This document shows positions 1,272-17,629 of a DNA stretch of 64,000 nucleotides, piece after piece (the stretch's first letter is position 1; every line of letters starts with the position of its first letter). The stretch comes from Candidatus Thiothrix anitrata (GTDB lineage: Bacteria; Pseudomonadota; Gammaproteobacteria; Thiotrichales; Thiotrichaceae), in NCBI RefSeq assembly GCF_017901155.1, contig NZ_CP072800.1, forward strand, positions 2,569,283 through 2,633,282, read 5' to 3'. The position numbers were made by a program, and so were the translations under genes. The notes beneath the pieces are model-generated. The model saw only the letters and a program-made list of their open reading frames with translations. It was not told the origin of the DNA and ran no database searches.

Positions 1272-1290
1272 CGCCCGCATTCAGTAAACA

Positions 1291-1525
1291 CTGGCAGGAG
1301 AGCGTTGCACACCGCAAGGTTGCCGCAACCGCCGAAGGCGCAATTCCGCCCGGAAACGCTCAGGCAAAAGGACTGGCAGTACTAGATCTGACTCTGGAGA
1401 GCAGTGCGGACGCACTCACCGAAGGGTAGTAACTTGATTGCCTCTTCCTCCCTGCCCCCCTTGCGGGGGAAGGGTCGGGGAAGGGGGGTAAATTGAGGAA
1501 TCTCTCAGGTAAACGGACAGAGGGG
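1291..1525 (+). ncRNA. Tandem glycine riboswitch
   Basis: Two aptamers in series precede gcvT. Aptamer 1 (about 1291-1380) has GGAGAG at 1298, GCCGAAGG at 1331 and the conserved ACGCTCAGGCAAAAGGAC at 1355-1372; its P1 pairs ACTGGCAG with CTGGCAGT with one mismatch. Aptamer 2 (about 1391-1523) has CTCTGGAGAG, CACCGAAGGG and then TCTCTCAGGTAAACGGACAGAG; P1 pairs CTCTG 1392-1396 with CAGAG 1518-1522. The order of conserved blocks matches the Vibrio glycine riboswitch. Aptamer 2 is unusually long because its variable P3b stem (closed by CCTC 1441-1444 with GAGG 1495-1498) carries a G-rich dispersed repeat. It should control the glycine cleavage operon. Confidence 0.93.
1448..1488 (+). repeat. Dispersed G-rich palindromic repeat, copy inside riboswitch aptamer 2
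   Basis: This is a diverged sense-orientation copy of the repeat also found at 3079-3123, 4330-4374 and 15410-15453. A C-rich arm and a GGGG/AAGGG arm flank a TTGC loop. Its 3' half has four G-runs (1465-1469, 1472-1474, 1477-1480, 1483-1488) separated by 2-base loops, a strong G-quadruplex pattern in the RNA strand. It occupies the tip of the P3b stem, which is naturally variable in this riboswitch class. Confidence 0.85.
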
Positions 1526-1557
1526 CGGCAAGCTTAGCGGCTTGCCGCCCTTTTTTT
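1523..1557 (+). terminator. Rho-independent terminator, riboswitch expression platform
   Basis: An 11-bp perfect stem (1523-1533 with 1540-1550), a 6-base loop TTAGCG and seven T residues (1551-1557) form a classic intrinsic terminator between the second aptamer and gcvT. Its 5' arm begins at the base following the aptamer 2 P1 strand. That geometry suggests glycine occupancy affects terminator formation, but no antiterminator pairing was identified. Confidence 0.85.
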
Positions 1558-1583: not shown

Positions 1584-2666
1584 ATGCAACGTACTGCACT
1601 TTACGCCAAGCACCTTGAATCCGGTGCGAAAATGGTCGATTTCGCGGGCTGGGAAATGCCCATTCACTACGGCTCACAACTGCAAGAACACCACCAAGTC
1701 CGCAACGACGCGGGTATGTTTGACGTATCACACATGGTCATCCTCGACCTCGTGGGGGCGCAATCCAAAGCTTTTTTGCACTACCTGCTCGCCAACAATG
1801 TCGATAAACTGAAAGAGTCCGGCAAGGCATTGTATAGCTGCATGTTGACCCCCGAAGGCACGGTGATTGACGATTTGATCGTGTATTTCATCACCGAAAC
1901 CCAATGGCGCATCGTGGTGAACGCTGGCACACGCGACAAAGATATTGCCTGGATGCAGCAGCAAATCGCCAACTTTGATGCCACCCTGACCGAACGTGAC
2001 GACCTTTCCATGATCGCCGCCCAAGGCCCGAATGCACGCGCCAAAGTCATGGGCATTATGCCTGCGAATGAAGTGGCTATCGTCGAACCGCTGAAAACCT
2101 TTTACGGCGCATTCGTCAACGACTGGTTCATTGCCCGCACGGGTTACACTGGCGAAGACGGCTTTGAAATGATGTTCCCCAATGCACAAGCCCACAAAGT
2201 GTGGGATGCATTGTTGGCGGCTGACATTAAGCCGATTGGCTTGGGCGCACGCGACACCTTGCGTCTGGAAGCGGGCATGAATTTGTACGGCACGGACATG
2301 GACGAAACCACGTCCCCGTTGATTTCCGGTTTGAGCTGGACAATCGGCTGGCAGCCAGAAGATCGTAACTTTATTGGGCGCAGCGCGTTGGAAGCACAGA
2401 AAGCCGCAGGTGTGCCGCAAAAATTTGTCGGTCTGGTGCTGGAAGGCAAAGGCGTATTGCGCAGTCATATGAAAGTGGTATGCAATGGTGGTGATGGTGA
2501 AACCACCAGCGGCACATTTTCGCCTACACTCGGCGTAGCGATTGCGCTGGCGCGAGTTCCGGCGAGCTGCGGTGAGACTTGCGAGGTCGATATTCGTGGC
2601 AAATTGCATCCCGCCAAAGTGGTGAAACCTGTGTTCGCCCGCAATGGCAAATCTGTTTTAAATTAA
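1584..2666 (+). CDS. gcvT: Glycine cleavage system T protein (aminomethyltransferase)
   Basis: This 360-residue protein has the family's usual length. It begins [24 protein letters not shown] and continues with [21 protein letters not shown] and the C-terminal [17 protein letters not shown] block. GcvT transfers the methylene group from the aminomethyl-lipoyl arm of GcvH to tetrahydrofolate, releasing ammonia. A GGAAG ribosome-binding site is at 1571. The gene is first in the gcvT-gcvH-gcvP operon, downstream of the glycine riboswitch and its terminator, and should therefore respond to glycine. Nothing abnormal is visible in the protein. Confidence 0.96.
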
Positions 2667-2683: not shown

Positions 2684-3070
2684 ATGAGCAATATCCCATC
2701 CGATTTGAAATACACCAAATCCCACGAGTGGGTACGTGACAATGGCGACGGTACTGTTACCGTCGGGATCACTGACCACGCGCAAGAGTTGCTGGGTGAC
2801 TTGGTACACGTTGATTTACCAGAAGTGGGCACTGAATTCGGTGCAGAAGACGGTTGTGCGGTTGCCGAATCCGTGAAAGCAGCTTCTGATATTTACGCAC
2901 CTGTGCCGGGCGTAATCGTCGAGGCGAATGAAGCGGTGCAAGATTCACCCGAATTGATCAATTCTGACCCTTACGGCGACGGCTGGCTGTTCACCATGCG
3001 CGTGGATGACGAAGACGCGCTGGGCGAACTGCTGGATGCAGAAAGCTACAAAGCGGAATGTGACGAGTAA
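2684..3070 (+). CDS. gcvH: Glycine cleavage system H protein
   Basis: This 128-residue lipoyl carrier starts [16 protein letters not shown]. The lipoylated lysine is K65 within [15 protein letters not shown], followed by NPDLIN-type sequence ([15 protein letters not shown]). GcvH shuttles the aminomethyl intermediate between GcvP, GcvT and the lipoamide dehydrogenase L protein. A TAGGAG ribosome-binding site lies at about 2672. It sits 17 bases after gcvT. The 70-base spacer before gcvP holds a C-rich copy of the dispersed repeat. Confidence 0.97.
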
Positions 3071-3078
3071 TTTTTAAG

Positions 3079-3123
3079 CCCCCCCATCCCCGACCCTTCC
3101 CCCGCAAGGGGTGAAGGGAGCAA
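3079..3123 (-). repeat. Dispersed G-rich palindromic repeat, copy between gcvH and gcvP
   Basis: This is an antisense copy: the reverse complement matches the copy in gcvP at 4330-4374 almost base for base. In the gcv mRNA it is C-rich and can form a hairpin (CCCTTCCCCCGCAAGGGGTGAAGGG region). The G-quadruplex pattern is on the minus strand. The repeat ends about 18 bases before the gcvP start codon. Confidence 0.88.
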
Positions 3124-3140
3124 GATCAGGTAACGATTAA

Positions 3141-6044
3141 ATGACAACCTTGTACGAACTTGAACAACACGACGATTTTATTGCCCGCCACATCGGTCCC
3201 AACGCGGCAGACACAGCGGCGATGCTGCAAACCGTGGGCGTGGAATCGCTGGATGCGCTGATTGATAGCACCGTGCCTGCGAGCATTCGCCTGCCTGCAC
3301 CGTTGGCAATCGACGGCAGCCGTTCCGAAGCCGAAACGTTGGCTTACCTCAAGCAACTGGCGCGGCAAAATGTTGTTGCCAAGTCGTACATCGGCATGGG
3401 CTATTACGATACGGTTGTGCCGCCGGTCATTTTGCGTAATGTCTTGGAAAACCCCGGTTGGTACACCGCGTATACGCCGTATCAGCCGGAAATTTCCCAA
3501 GGGCGGCTGGAAGGCTTGCTCAATTACCAGCAAATGGTCACGGATTTGACGGGCATGGACATTGCCAATGCCTCGTTGTTGGATGAAGCGACGGCGGCAG
3601 CGGAAGCGATGACGCTGTGCAAGCGTTCCAATAAGCTCAAATCGGATAAATTTTTTGTGGGTGCGGACGTGCATCCGCAAACCATCGACGTACTGAAAAC
3701 ACGGGCGGAACATTTTGGTTTTGAATTGGTGATCGGCAACCCGTATAGCGAGTTGGCGGGGCAGGAAGTGTTTGGTGTATTGCTGCAATACCCTAGCACC
3801 ACGGGCGAAGTCGTTGATATTGAAGCCTTGATCAATCAGGCGCACGCGCAAAAAGCCTTGGTATGTGTAGCTTCCGATCTGATGGCGTTGGTGATGCTGA
3901 AAGCTCCCGGCGAAATGGGTGCGGATGTGGTGGTCGGTAACTCGCAACGTTTCGGTGTGCCAATGGGTTTCGGTGGGCCTCATGCAGCGTTTTTTGCGGT
4001 GAAGGATGCGTTTAAGCGCACCATGCCGGGGCGCGTGATTGGGGTTTCGATTGATAGTCATGGCAAGCAAGCCTTGCGCATGGCGATGCAGACCCGTGAA
4101 CAGCATATCCGTCGTGAAAAGGCGACTTCCAATATTTGTACGGCGCAGGCGTTGCTGGCGAATATGGCGGGTTTCTACGCGGTGTATCACGGCGCGGAAG
4201 GCTTGAAGACGATTGCGGGGCGGATTCATCGGCTGATGAATATTCTGGCGAAGGGTTTGCAGCAGAAGGGTGTCCAACTGTTGAATGACACTTGGTTTGA
4301 TACGCTGACGGTCGTCAAATCTTCCTCTCTTGCTCCCTTCACCCCTTGCGGGGGAAGGGTTGGGGATGGGGGGGATTCTTCATCCTGCATCAATTTCCGC
4401 CATTTCACCAACGGCAATATCGGTATCAGTATTGACGAGCGCAAAACCCGCACTGACATTGCTGAGTTGTTTGATGTGTTGTTGGGCGCAGGGCATGGGT
4501 TGGATGTGGATGCGCTGGAGGCTGCGGTTGTTGCAGAAGGTTTCAGCGGGATTCCATCCGGTTATCAGCGTACCAGCGATTTCCTGACGCATCCGGTATT
4601 CAATTCGCACCATTCTGAATCGGAGATGTTGCGTTACCTCAAACGCTTGGAGAATAAGGATTTCTCGTTGGCGCATGGCATGATTCCGCTGGGTTCTTGC
4701 ACCATGAAGTTGAATGCGACGACGGAAATGATTCCGGTGACTTGGAACGAGTTTGCCAATATTCACCCGTTTGCGCCGCAGGGGCAGACCGTGGGTTATC
4801 GCGCCATGATCAAGGAGTTGGAAGATTGGTTGGTGGAAATCACTGGCTATGATGCGATTTCGATGCAGCCGAATTCGGGGGCGCAGGGCGAATACGCAGG
4901 GCTGGTGGCGATCCGTCGCTATCAGGCGAGTATTGGGCAGGGGCATCGGGATGTGTGTTTGATTCCGAGTTCGGCGCATGGCACGAATCCGGCGTCGGCG
5001 GCGATGGTGAGCCTGAAGGTGGTGGTGGTCGAGTGCGACGCGAACGGTAACGTGGACGTGGCGGATTTGCGTGCCAAGGCGGAAAAACACGCGGCGAATT
5101 TATCGTGCTTGATGGTGACTTATCCGTCTACGCACGGGGTGTTTGAGCAGGACATCGTGGAAATTTGCGACATCGTGCATCAGTTCGGTGGGCAGGTGTA
5201 CATGGATGGCGCGAACATGAACGCGCAAGTGGGCTTGTCGAAACCGGGCAAGATGGGGTCGGATGTGTCGCATTTGAACTTGCACAAGACCTTTGCGATT
5301 CCGCACGGTGGCGGTGGCCCTGGCATGGGGCCGATTGGAGTGAAGGCGCATTTAGCTCCGTTTTTGTCCAGCCATGCGGTGACGCCGCCGGATGGGGTTG
5401 CGCTGGGGAATAGTGCGGTGTCGGCTGCTCCTTATGGGAGTGGGGCGATTTTGCCGATTTCGTGGGCGTACATTAAGTTGATGGGCGCGGCGGGTTTGCA
5501 GCGGGCGACGGAGATGGCGATTTTGAACGCCAATTACATCATGCAACGCTTGGCTGAGCATTATCCGGTGCTGTTCCGGGGGGCGAACGGGCGGGTGGCG
5601 CATGAATGTATCATCGACATTCGTCCGTTGAAGGCGGCTTCGGGGATTGATGAGTCGGACATCGCTAAACGCTTGATGGATTACGGTTTTCACGCGCCTA
5701 CCATGTCGTTTCCGGTGGCGGGTACGCTGATGATCGAGCCGACCGAATCCGAGCCGAAAGAAGAGCTTGACCGTTTTTGCGATGCGATGATTGCGATTCG
5801 GGAAGAGATTCGCAAGGTGCAGGAGGGCGTGTGGCCTGCGGACAATAATCCGCTGGTGAATGCGCCGCATACGCTGGATGATTTGGTGAATGCTTGGGAG
5901 CGCCCTTACAGCCAGACCGAGGCGGTGTTCCCGCAGGGTGTTAGCCCGACGGCGAAGTATTGGCCTACCGTGAACCGGATTGATAATGTGTATGGGGATC
6001 GGAATTTGGTGTGTTCTTGTCCGAGTGTGGATAGTTATCGGTAA
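3141..6044 (+). CDS. gcvP: Glycine dehydrogenase (decarboxylating), P protein
   Basis: The 967-residue single-chain P protein decarboxylates glycine with pyridoxal phosphate and passes the aminomethyl group to GcvH. It starts with the usual FIARHIGP block; the N half has [19 protein letters not shown], and the C half has [21 protein letters not shown] and the PLP site [18 protein letters not shown] with Lys716. Residues about 397-412 are encoded by a copy of the dispersed G-rich repeat and read [15 protein letters not shown], lying between FDTLTVVK and [17 protein letters not shown]. In typical GcvP this interval is a short helix, so the repeat has replaced or displaced it while keeping the frame. 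Whether enzyme activity is unaffected cannot be told from sequence. Confidence 0.96.
4330..4374 (+). repeat. Dispersed G-rich palindromic repeat, in-frame copy inside gcvP
   Basis: This 45-bp copy lies wholly within the gcvP reading frame. Its reverse complement is nearly identical to the copies at 3079-3123 and 15410-15453. The sense strand has four G-runs with 2-base loops between 4350 and 4374, a G-quadruplex pattern, and the C-rich arm can pair back to it around a TTGC loop. Confidence 0.9.
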
Positions 6045-14856: not shown

Positions 14857-14900
14857 CCCCTCACCCCCCAGCCCCCTCTCCCTCAAGGGGCGAGGGGGAG
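14857..14900 (-). repeat. Second-type palindromic G-rich repeat after mrp
   Basis: The core CCCTCACCCCCCAGCCCCC and TCTCCC arm are followed by a GGGGCGAGGGGGAG arm. The minus strand carries four G-runs fitting a G-quadruplex pattern. The reverse complement of the repeat at 17582-17629 has the same left arm, so the two are copies of one family. Confidence 0.8.
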
Positions 14901-14906
14901 TAAGAG

Positions 14907-15409: not shown

Positions 15410-15453
15410 CCCCCCCATCCCCAGCCCTTCCCCCGCAAGGGGTGAAGGGAGCA
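15410..15453 (-). repeat. Dispersed G-rich palindromic repeat before the TPR lipoprotein gene
   Basis: The reverse complement matches the gcvP-internal copy almost perfectly (CTCCCTTCACCCCTTGCGGG arm and the following G-run block). It is in the same C-rich-in-message orientation as the copy before gcvP and also ends about 20 bases before a start codon. Confidence 0.88.
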
Positions 15454-15475
15454 AGAAACCCCGTTGAGGTTTGTT

Positions 15476-17560
15476 ATGCGTCGTTTAGTGTTCGTCAGTG
15501 TATTGTTGCTCGCTGCCTGTGGTGACAAACAAGAAGTCAGCCAAAACAGTGGCGGGGATTTTTCGCCCAATCAGGTGGCAGGGCGGGATGCTATCCAGAA
15601 CGTCAATGTCCAGAATGCTACGATCAATATGCCGCCCGAAATGCTGGAAAAGTTAGCGCAAGCATTAAAAGCGCAAGGTGTTCCGGCAGATCAACTGAAT
15701 GCTCAGTTGGAAGAACTCAAGCGCAAATACGCCGACTTGGAACAACGCTTAGGCGAATACGCCAAAACCGACGAACTCGCTCAACAAGCCCGCAAAGAAC
15801 TCGACTTAGGCAACCTCGACCAAGCCGAAACACTGCTGCAACAAGCCTACGACAAAGACTATCAACTTTCGCGCCAACGCCTTGCGCAACGCGCCTTTGA
15901 CCTCGCCGAAGTCGCTGAACTGCGCCTCGACCACGACAAAGCCCTCACCCGCTACCGCGAAGTCACCCAACTCCAACCCGATAATGTCACCGCGTGGTGG
16001 AATCTTGCTGAAATCGCCCAAAAGCTCGGCAACACCACCCAAGCCCTCGATGCATGGCGCGGGATGCAACAAGCCGCCAAAACCCAACAACAGGAACGCG
16101 AGCTTGCCGTTGCGATTTCGGGTGAAGCTGACATCCTGAAAGCCAACGGTGATGGTAAAACCGCGCAGGAAAAATTCCTCCAAGCCCATGAAGCCCTGAA
16201 AAAAGCTGCTACCGCCGAACCTGATAATACTGACCGTCAGCGCGACCTGTCGGTGAGCTATGATCGAATCGGCGACCTGTACAAGGCGAACGGCGACACG
16301 CCCGCCGCGCTGAAGGCGTATCAGGATTTGCTGTTGATAGCCCAGAAGCTGGTAGAACTCGACCCGAAGCAGGCAGAATGGCAGCGCGACCTGTCGGTGA
16401 GCTATGATCGAATCGGCGACCTGTACAAGGCGAACGGCGACACGCCCGCCGCGCTGAAGGCGTATCAGGATTCGCTGACGATCCGAAACAAGCTGGTAGA
16501 ACTCGACCCGAAGCAGGCAGAATGGCAGCGCGACCTGTCGGTGAGCTACAACAAGGTAGGCGACCTTTACAAGGCGAACGGCGATACGCCCTCCGCGCTG
16601 AAGGCGTATCAGGATTCGCTGACGATCCGAAACAAGCTGGTAGAACTCGACCCGAAGCAGGCAGAATGGCAGCGCGACCTGTCGGTGAGCTATGAGCGAA
16701 TCGGCGACCTGTACAAGGCGAACGGCGACACGCCCGCCGCGCTGAAGGCGTATCAGGATTCGCTGACGATCCGAAACAAGCTGGTAGAACTCAACCCGAA
16801 GCAGGCAGAATGGCAGCGCGACCTGTCGGTGAGCTACAACAAGGTAGGCGACCTTTACAAGGCGAACGGCGACACGCCCGCCGCGCTGAAGGCGTATCAG
16901 GATTCGCTGTCGATAGCCCAGAAGCTGGTGGAACTCGACCCGAAGCAGGTTCAGTGGCAATACGATCTTGGGATTAGTTACGAACGGGTTGGAGATATGT
17001 ATCTGGCAAGTGGTGACACAAAAGTCGCGTTGGAAAACTATCAGAAACGCCACGATATTATCCAGAAGCTGGTAGAACTCGACCCGAAGCAGGCAGAATG
17101 GCAGCGCGACCTGTCGGTGAGCTACGAGAAGCTGGGTGATATGTACGTAGCGAACGGCGACACGCCCGCCGCGCTGAAGGCGTATCAGGATTCGCTGACG
17201 ATCCGAAACAAGCTGGTAGAACTCAACCCGAAGCAGGCAGAATGGCAGCGCGACCTGTCGGTGAGCTACAACAAGGTAGGCGACCTTTACAAGGCGAACG
17301 GCGACACGCCCGCCGCGCTGAAGGCGTATCAGGATTCGCTGGCGATCAGAAACAAGTTGGTTGAACTCGACCCGAAGCAGGCAGAATGGCAAACCGACAT
17401 CGTGGTGAGCTATTTCAAACTCTCGGAAGTTGAACCCGCCAAGAAAACCCAATACCTGCAAGACGCGCTGAAAATCCTGCAAACCCTCCACACCGAAAAC
17501 CGCCTAAGCAAAGACAAACAAGCCTGGATTGAAACCATCCAAGGCAAGTTAGGCAAATAA
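15476..17560 (+). CDS. TPR lipoprotein with eight 48-residue repeats
   Basis: Start 15476 is preferred over TTG 15464 because GAGG at 15466 sits 6 bases upstream. The 694-residue product has a lipoprotein signal ending LAAC, then FSPNQVAGRDAIQNVNVQNATIN, a coiled-coil-like segment (LEELKRKYADLEQRL), conventional TPRs and finally eight 48-residue repeats of the type WQRDLSVSYNKVGDLYKANGD plus TPAALKAYQDSLTIRNKLVELDP. Most repeats are nearly identical in DNA as well as protein; the sixth is diverged. It should sit in the periplasm or on the outer membrane as a protein-binding scaffold. Partners are unknown; the upstream SPN-motif protein is the best candidate. Confidence 0.85.
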   Translation: MRRLVFVSVLLLAACGDKQEVSQNSGGDFSPNQVAGRDAIQNVNVQNATINMPPEMLEKLAQALKAQGVPADQLNAQLEELKRKYADLEQRLGEYAKTDELAQQARKELDLGNLDQAETLLQQAYDKDYQLSRQRLAQRAFDLAEVAELRLDHDKALTRYREVTQLQPDNVTAWWNLAEIAQKLGNTTQALDAWRGMQQAAKTQQQERELAVAISGEADILKANGDGKTAQEKFLQAHEALKKAATAEPDNTDRQRDLSVSYDRIGDLYKANGDTPAALKAYQDLLLIAQKLVELDPKQAEWQRDLSVSYDRIGDLYKANGDTPAALKAYQDSLTIRNKLVELDPKQAEWQRDLSVSYNKVGDLYKANGDTPSALKAYQDSLTIRNKLVELDPKQAEWQRDLSVSYERIGDLYKANGDTPAALKAYQDSLTIRNKLVELNPKQAEWQRDLSVSYNKVGDLYKANGDTPAALKAYQDSLSIAQKLVELDPKQVQWQYDLGISYERVGDMYLASGDTKVALENYQKRHDIIQKLVELDPKQAEWQRDLSVSYEKLGDMYVANGDTPAALKAYQDSLTIRNKLVELNPKQAEWQRDLSVSYNKVGDLYKANGDTPAALKAYQDSLAIRNKLVELDPKQAEWQTDIVVSYFKLSEVEPAKKTQYLQDALKILQTLHTENRLSKDKQAWIETIQGKLGK
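16238..17389 (+). repeat. Tandem 144-bp repeats within the TPR lipoprotein gene
   Basis: Eight units of exactly 144 bp begin at 16238, 16382, 16526, 16670, 16814, 16958, 17102 and 17246. Unit six is clearly diverged; the others differ at only a few positions. The near-identity at synonymous sites indicates recent duplication or gene conversion, and the copy number is likely unstable. Confidence 0.92.
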
Positions 17561-17581
17561 AATTGCTTTCCCTCTCCTTCT

Positions 17582-17629
17582 TCCTCCCCCTCTACCGCTT
17601 CGCGGGAGAGGGGGCTGGGGGGTGAGGGT
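17582..17629 (+). repeat. Second-type palindromic G-rich repeat after the TPR gene
   Basis: TCCTCCCCCTCTACCGC and a GGGAGAGGGGGCTGGGGGG block form a palindrome around CTTCGC. Four G-runs on the plus strand fit a G-quadruplex pattern. The reverse complement shares its core with the copy at 14857-14900. Confidence 0.8.

Follow-up and report, generated by a model that had tools for sequence, protein, structure and literature searches.

The gcvTHP operon of Candidatus Thiothrix anitrata is preceded by a tandem glycine riboswitch and an intrinsic terminator (1285-1557), and a G-rich dispersed repeat lies within the P3b stem of the second aptamer. This raises the question of whether the repeat has been given a role in the riboswitch or is only tolerated there. 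The window, that is, the whole 64,000-nt stretch of DNA analysed (2569283-2633282 of a single-contig genome of 3.55 Mb, G000), was compared with 15 congeners, including Thiothrix caldifontis, T. lacustris, and T. fructosivorans, giving a set of 16 genus genomes. Positions refer to the window and are collected in the table below.

Both aptamers and the terminator are retained in 16 out of 16 genomes of the genus, and their position upstream of gcvTHP points to a putative glycine-dependent control of gcvT. Rfam detects the first aptamer only, as the second scores below the family thresholds, probably because of its long P3b; a search with permissive thresholds at the insert and aptamer 2 returned just weak microRNA and leader matches below their own cut-offs. 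Aptamer 2 was recognised from its conserved core GGAGAG...CACCGAAGGGTAGTAAC...GGAATCTCTCAGG...GGACAGAG in the alignment with the 15 congeners. The insert in P3b would thus account for automatic annotation missing the second aptamer.

Features of the gcv leader and operon, with the copies of the dispersed repeat (repeat A) in the operon
Feature	Position	Strand	Basis or detail
Glycine riboswitch aptamer 1 (RF00504)	1285..1385	+	Rfam 62.4 bits, E 1.5e-10, cut-off 32
CCGCCC in aptamer-1 P3b loop, predicted pseudoknot strand	1346..1351	+	invariant within genus
Glycine riboswitch aptamer 2	1392..1522 (approx.)	+	P1 1392-1396/1518-1522; P2 1403-1407/1412-1416; conserved in 16 congeners
Aptamer-2 P3b with insert	1433..1497	+	basal stem 1433-1439 pairs with 1491-1497
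Repeat A in aptamer-2 P3b tip, triplex-motif layout	1442..1488 (47 nt)	+	aligned copies
Parts of repeat A: pyrimidine arm, loop, purine arm, TC, second purine arm	1450-1459 (pyrimidine), 1465-1474 (purine), 1477-1488 (second purine)		
Intrinsic terminator	1523..1557	+	stem 1523-1533/1540-1550 (11 bp) and T7
GGGCGG, first six bases of terminator stem, pseudoknot partner of 1346-1351	1523-1528	+	
gcvT (aminomethyltransferase), regulated gene	1584..2666	+	translation, operon context
gcvH	2684..3070	+	translation
Repeat A, second copy, between gcvH and gcvP	3079..3125	-	
gcvP (GDC-P, PF02347)	3141..6044	+	translation
Repeat A, third copy, in frame within gcvP	4327..4373	+	

The ends of repeat A were set by alignment with the copy in gcvP. 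In it, a C-rich pyrimidine arm is followed by a short loop and the purine arm GGGGGAAGGG; TC, replaced by TT or CT in other copies, then links this arm to the second purine arm, GGGGAAGGGGGG. A 24-nt core of the repeat occurs four times in the window (0.00 expected from shuffles), and a 28-nt core has 42 copies in the genome (24 on the + and 18 on the - strand) with none for the reversed control. Some copies form inverted pairs ~70-80 bp apart. Further copies of the G/C-rich repeat, two of them diverged, are located at 14858-14904, 15410-15456, and 17581-17627 of the window. A tandem array of 144-nt units also lies at 16198-17505, with eight overlapping 300-nt matches that are 69-100% alike.

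About one third of the 30 copies examined fall inside long reading frames (loci L001, L006, L009, L013, L016, L021, L023, L024, and L028, near position 1500). Among the genes with such apparent in-frame inserts are dnaX, polA, and those of an AcrB-type transporter, an HrpA-like helicase, and hydantoinase. The idea that repeat A recurs within other structured RNAs was rejected, since none of the 30 copies lies in another Rfam family; one SRP RNA is found >1 kb from its repeat copy.

The layout of repeat A, pyrimidine/purine/Hoogsteen-purine, is that of the BoxC/TM intrastrand triplex repeats (PMC4666352). Both are dispersed and G/C-rich, both have a loop between the pyrimidine arm and the first purine arm and a short linker before the second purine arm, and both occur as single copies and as inverted pairs. 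They differ in their arms, which are GGGGGAAGGG and GGGGAWGGGG in repeat A and GGGAGAGGG and GGGTGAGGG in BoxC/TM, and the BoxC/TM consensus CCCTCTCCC..GGGAGAGGGTTAGGGTGAGGG is not matched by repeat A. In addition, copies of repeat A are found within a riboswitch and, in frame, within genes; no riboswitch setting is described in PMC4666352 (Holder et al. 2015), and the word riboswitch is absent from its main text. Judged by its layout, repeat A is a BoxC/TM-like dispersed repeat, which may form a triplex as single-stranded DNA. Mobilisation as a RAYT-dependent REP was rejected, as the genome gave no match to Y1_Tnp (PF01797) and the control genomes were positive. Visual inspection revealed no target-site duplication.

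The comparison within the genus shows that the tip of aptamer-2 P3b is filled in different ways. Nine of the 16 genomes have a short plain stem-loop and seven carry an insert. Repeat A is found in G000, G003, and G012, a BoxC-type repeat close to the BoxC/TM consensus in G014, and a short palindromic repeat (CCTGAGCGTAGTCGAAGG) in G005 and G010. In the case of G006, the tip holds a long two-armed version of this palindromic repeat, which is unrelated to repeat A. With these four different inserts, the length of P3b ranges from ~30 to 95 nt. Each kind of insert is also dispersed in the genome that carries it; most of the genus has multiple copies of repeat A and of the palindromic repeat, and the BoxC-type repeat is scarce (four copies in G014). 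The basal pairing of P3b is preserved in all 16 genomes although its letters change. These results agree with the preliminary description in that the repeat is dispersed, the second aptamer is otherwise complete (by its aligned core), and the P3b stem is tolerant, other species filling the same tip with different inserts or with nothing.

Outside the genus, the aptamer 2 of other gammaproteobacteria is almost devoid of P3b, and a more distant gammaproteobacterium (G073, locus L115) has its own 189-nt P3b insert, with one partial second copy in that genome. Both observations indicate that the tip of aptamer-2 P3b is dispensable.

On the contrary, aptamer-1 P3b is hardly changed across the genus while the aptamer-2 tip varies. 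Its CCGCCC tract is complementary to GGGCGG at the start of the terminator stem. Both tracts are invariant in the genus and are complementary at 5 or 6 of 6 positions in nearly all of 47 loci. The covariation of this pseudoknot is not significant (213 of 2000 shuffles), since the tracts hardly vary, although a few compensatory changes exist. According to Torgerson et al. (cited in PMC13104608), 66% of gcvT-type glycine riboswitches have a pseudoknot of this kind. The pairing of aptamer-1 P3b with the 5′ arm of the terminator would explain why aptamer 2 alone is permissive. Glycine would stabilise the aptamers and the pseudoknot, thus withholding the 5′ arm from the terminator, and the tip of aptamer-2 P3b would have no partner elsewhere in the switch.

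A similar tolerance is seen in the same operon. One loop of GcvP holds in-frame repeats in 10 out of 16 Thiothrix genomes (loci L082-L096 and the third copy in the window), namely, repeat A forward, repeat A reversed, or a palindromic repeat. The solved GcvP structure 9uz6 has a shorter segment at this loop, which appears to be a tolerant site used by the repeats.

The history of the inserts was followed on the rpoBC tree; the gcvT tree was poorly resolved and was set aside. G000 (repeat A) stands beside its sister G010 (palindromic repeat), and G003 and G012 (repeat A) stand with the plain G007. Over the 64 nt of P3b with repeat A, G000, G003, and G012 are 100% identical, against 82-87% for rpoBC and 90-92% for gcvT. 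The identity profile climbs to 98-100% over the riboswitch and the start of gcvT, and the sequence upstream in G000 is unrelated. By identity comparison the gcv alleles look mosaic. The simplest inference is that the identity of this insert would derive from recombination between species through conserved flanks, the alternative being selection on the insert.

These observations are probably accounted for by a recurrent and largely neutral insertion at the permissive tip of aptamer-2 P3b, which spread partly by recombination between species. Several unrelated palindromic repeats would have settled independently at the tip, and the insert alleles would then have moved between Thiothrix species through the conserved flanks. 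Despite the presence of repeat A, the switch retains its basal P3b pairing, binding core, pseudoknot tracts, and terminator. The RNA of the repeat would fold as a long hairpin that prolongs P3b and points away from both the glycine pocket and the aptamer-aptamer interface, so that glycine sensing and antitermination would continue and the insert would be neutral for switching. The lack of a Y1/RAYT transposase in the genome, as a mobilising enzyme for the repeats, and of a visible target-site duplication counts against this explanation, and selection could equally have kept the 64-nt P3b perfectly identical in three species. The genus offers a natural experiment, showing which parts of a riboswitch may vary freely.

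One alternative is that the insertion is targeted, that is, a mobilising machinery would prefer the tips of existing hairpins and P3b would be a true hotspot. At least three distinct types of insert at a site of ~10 nt and the second multi-insert site in gcvP are in its favor. A rough estimate places the chance that at least three different repeats would enter one 10-nt tip by random insertion far below 1 in 1000, with the caveat that the site was picked post hoc and that selection purges insertions elsewhere. In a genome-wide comparison, the sequences flanking 31 copies seem to pair slightly better than they do after re-dealing, the observed mean being reached by 28 of 500 shuffles. However, the share of copies within long open frames and the lack of a transposase candidate make targeting unlikely. 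Equally doubtful is the extended form, in which palindromic repeats are delivered preferentially to hairpin tips and the riboswitch stem and the GcvP loop serve as a docking site for exchange between species.

The insert may instead have been recruited, its long P3b hairpin tuning co-transcriptional folding, pausing, or RNA stability, with the sequence under selection. This would agree with the 64 nt shared by three species, as plain tips differ even between the near-identical G001 and G009 (98% in rpoBC). On the other hand, sister and near species live without repeat A, the short palindromic insert is identical in G005 and G010 as well, and mosaic gcv alleles with recombination through conserved flanks explain the identity. 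Recruitment is therefore rather improbable, and neutral insertion at a permissive tip is preferred.

The preliminary description had proposed that the G-rich half forms an RNA G-quadruplex, which would compete with aptamer 2 or tie the switch to potassium. The four G-runs with 2-nt loops on which it was based are present (1465-1469, 1472-1474, 1477-1480, and 1483-1488; loops AA, TC, and AA), while the start of the repeat, given as 1448, lies 6 nt earlier, at 1442. In isolation the G-rich half has a G4Hunter score of 2.8 and a predicted quadruplex of -16.7 kcal/mol. BoxC/TM DNA oligonucleotides form a triplex, with a quadruplex excluded by NMR (PMC4666352). Purine-motif triplexes, according to work cited in PMC4666352, cannot form in RNA, which leaves quadruplex or hairpin as the options for the transcript. 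The unconstrained 293-nt leader has a quadruplex state 1.1 kcal/mol below the fold without it in the model, a difference of little weight since neither fold contains the native aptamers.

When the whole stem is considered, the same Gs pair with the C-rich arm. The P3b stem with the insert (70 nt) is predicted at -34.6 kcal/mol, a value unchanged when quadruplexes are allowed in the ViennaRNA model, and the best P3b fold with a quadruplex and a free C-arm reaches -21.5 kcal/mol, that is, ~13 kcal/mol worse than the hairpin. The G4Hunter score of the whole insert falls to 0.64. The C-rich arm is transcribed first, so the hairpin should be favored further. These predictions argue against a quadruplex as the working structure, and the G-rich run is more likely a long P3b hairpin than a regulatory G-quadruplex. 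A G-rich transcript is also not required, as repeat A is used in both orientations within the gcv operon. With the G-runs paired to the C-rich half and the congeners carrying a non-G4 palindrome or nothing, the proposed link to potassium is not supported, and a quadruplex acting on the switch is very improbable, though a minor quadruplex state may exist. Thus, the G-runs of BoxC-like repeats should not readily be taken for regulatory quadruplexes.

Related cases are known from other bacteria. Palindromic elements of Rickettsia occupy protein genes as well as tmRNA and RNase P RNA (Ogata 2002, as cited in PMC2229807). As in Thiothrix, such repeats are tolerated there within structured RNAs that are conserved and, in frame, within proteins, but in Thiothrix, a different host, the RNA concerned is a metabolite-sensing riboswitch and one site is shared by several types of repeat. 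To our knowledge, the Rickettsia elements are unrelated in sequence to the Thiothrix repeats. Upstream of trp in Streptococcus pneumoniae, two T boxes are combined with a BOX element (PMC3049150), likewise a dispersed repeat that is part of a riboswitch leader in which regulation apparently persists; the BOX element lies between two riboswitches, whereas the Thiothrix repeat lies within an aptamer stem. The gcvT tandem glycine riboswitch of Neisseria gonorrhoeae retains its glycine response with an aptamer-2 P3 loop of 73 nt (PMC13104608). Its extended, genus-variable aptamer-2 P3 resembles that of Thiothrix, but its control is translational, with no terminator, and the Thiothrix switch has one. 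The long P3 of N. gonorrhoeae is not called an insertion, a word absent from the text of PMC13104608.

In the literature searched, which covered few subscription papers, no account was found of a riboswitch aptamer stem that holds a dispersed repeat. Given the precedents in tmRNA, RNase P RNA, and between T boxes, this case is a new variation on a known theme, in which a metabolite aptamer houses a dispersed bacterial repeat.

A different position is occupied in a Thiotrichaceae relative (G031, locus L031), where an element of ~170 nt lies between the two aptamers (about 1590-1740) and has the inverted ends TAAGGAAACTCTGATTAAGTC and GACTTGATCAGAGTTTCCTTA.
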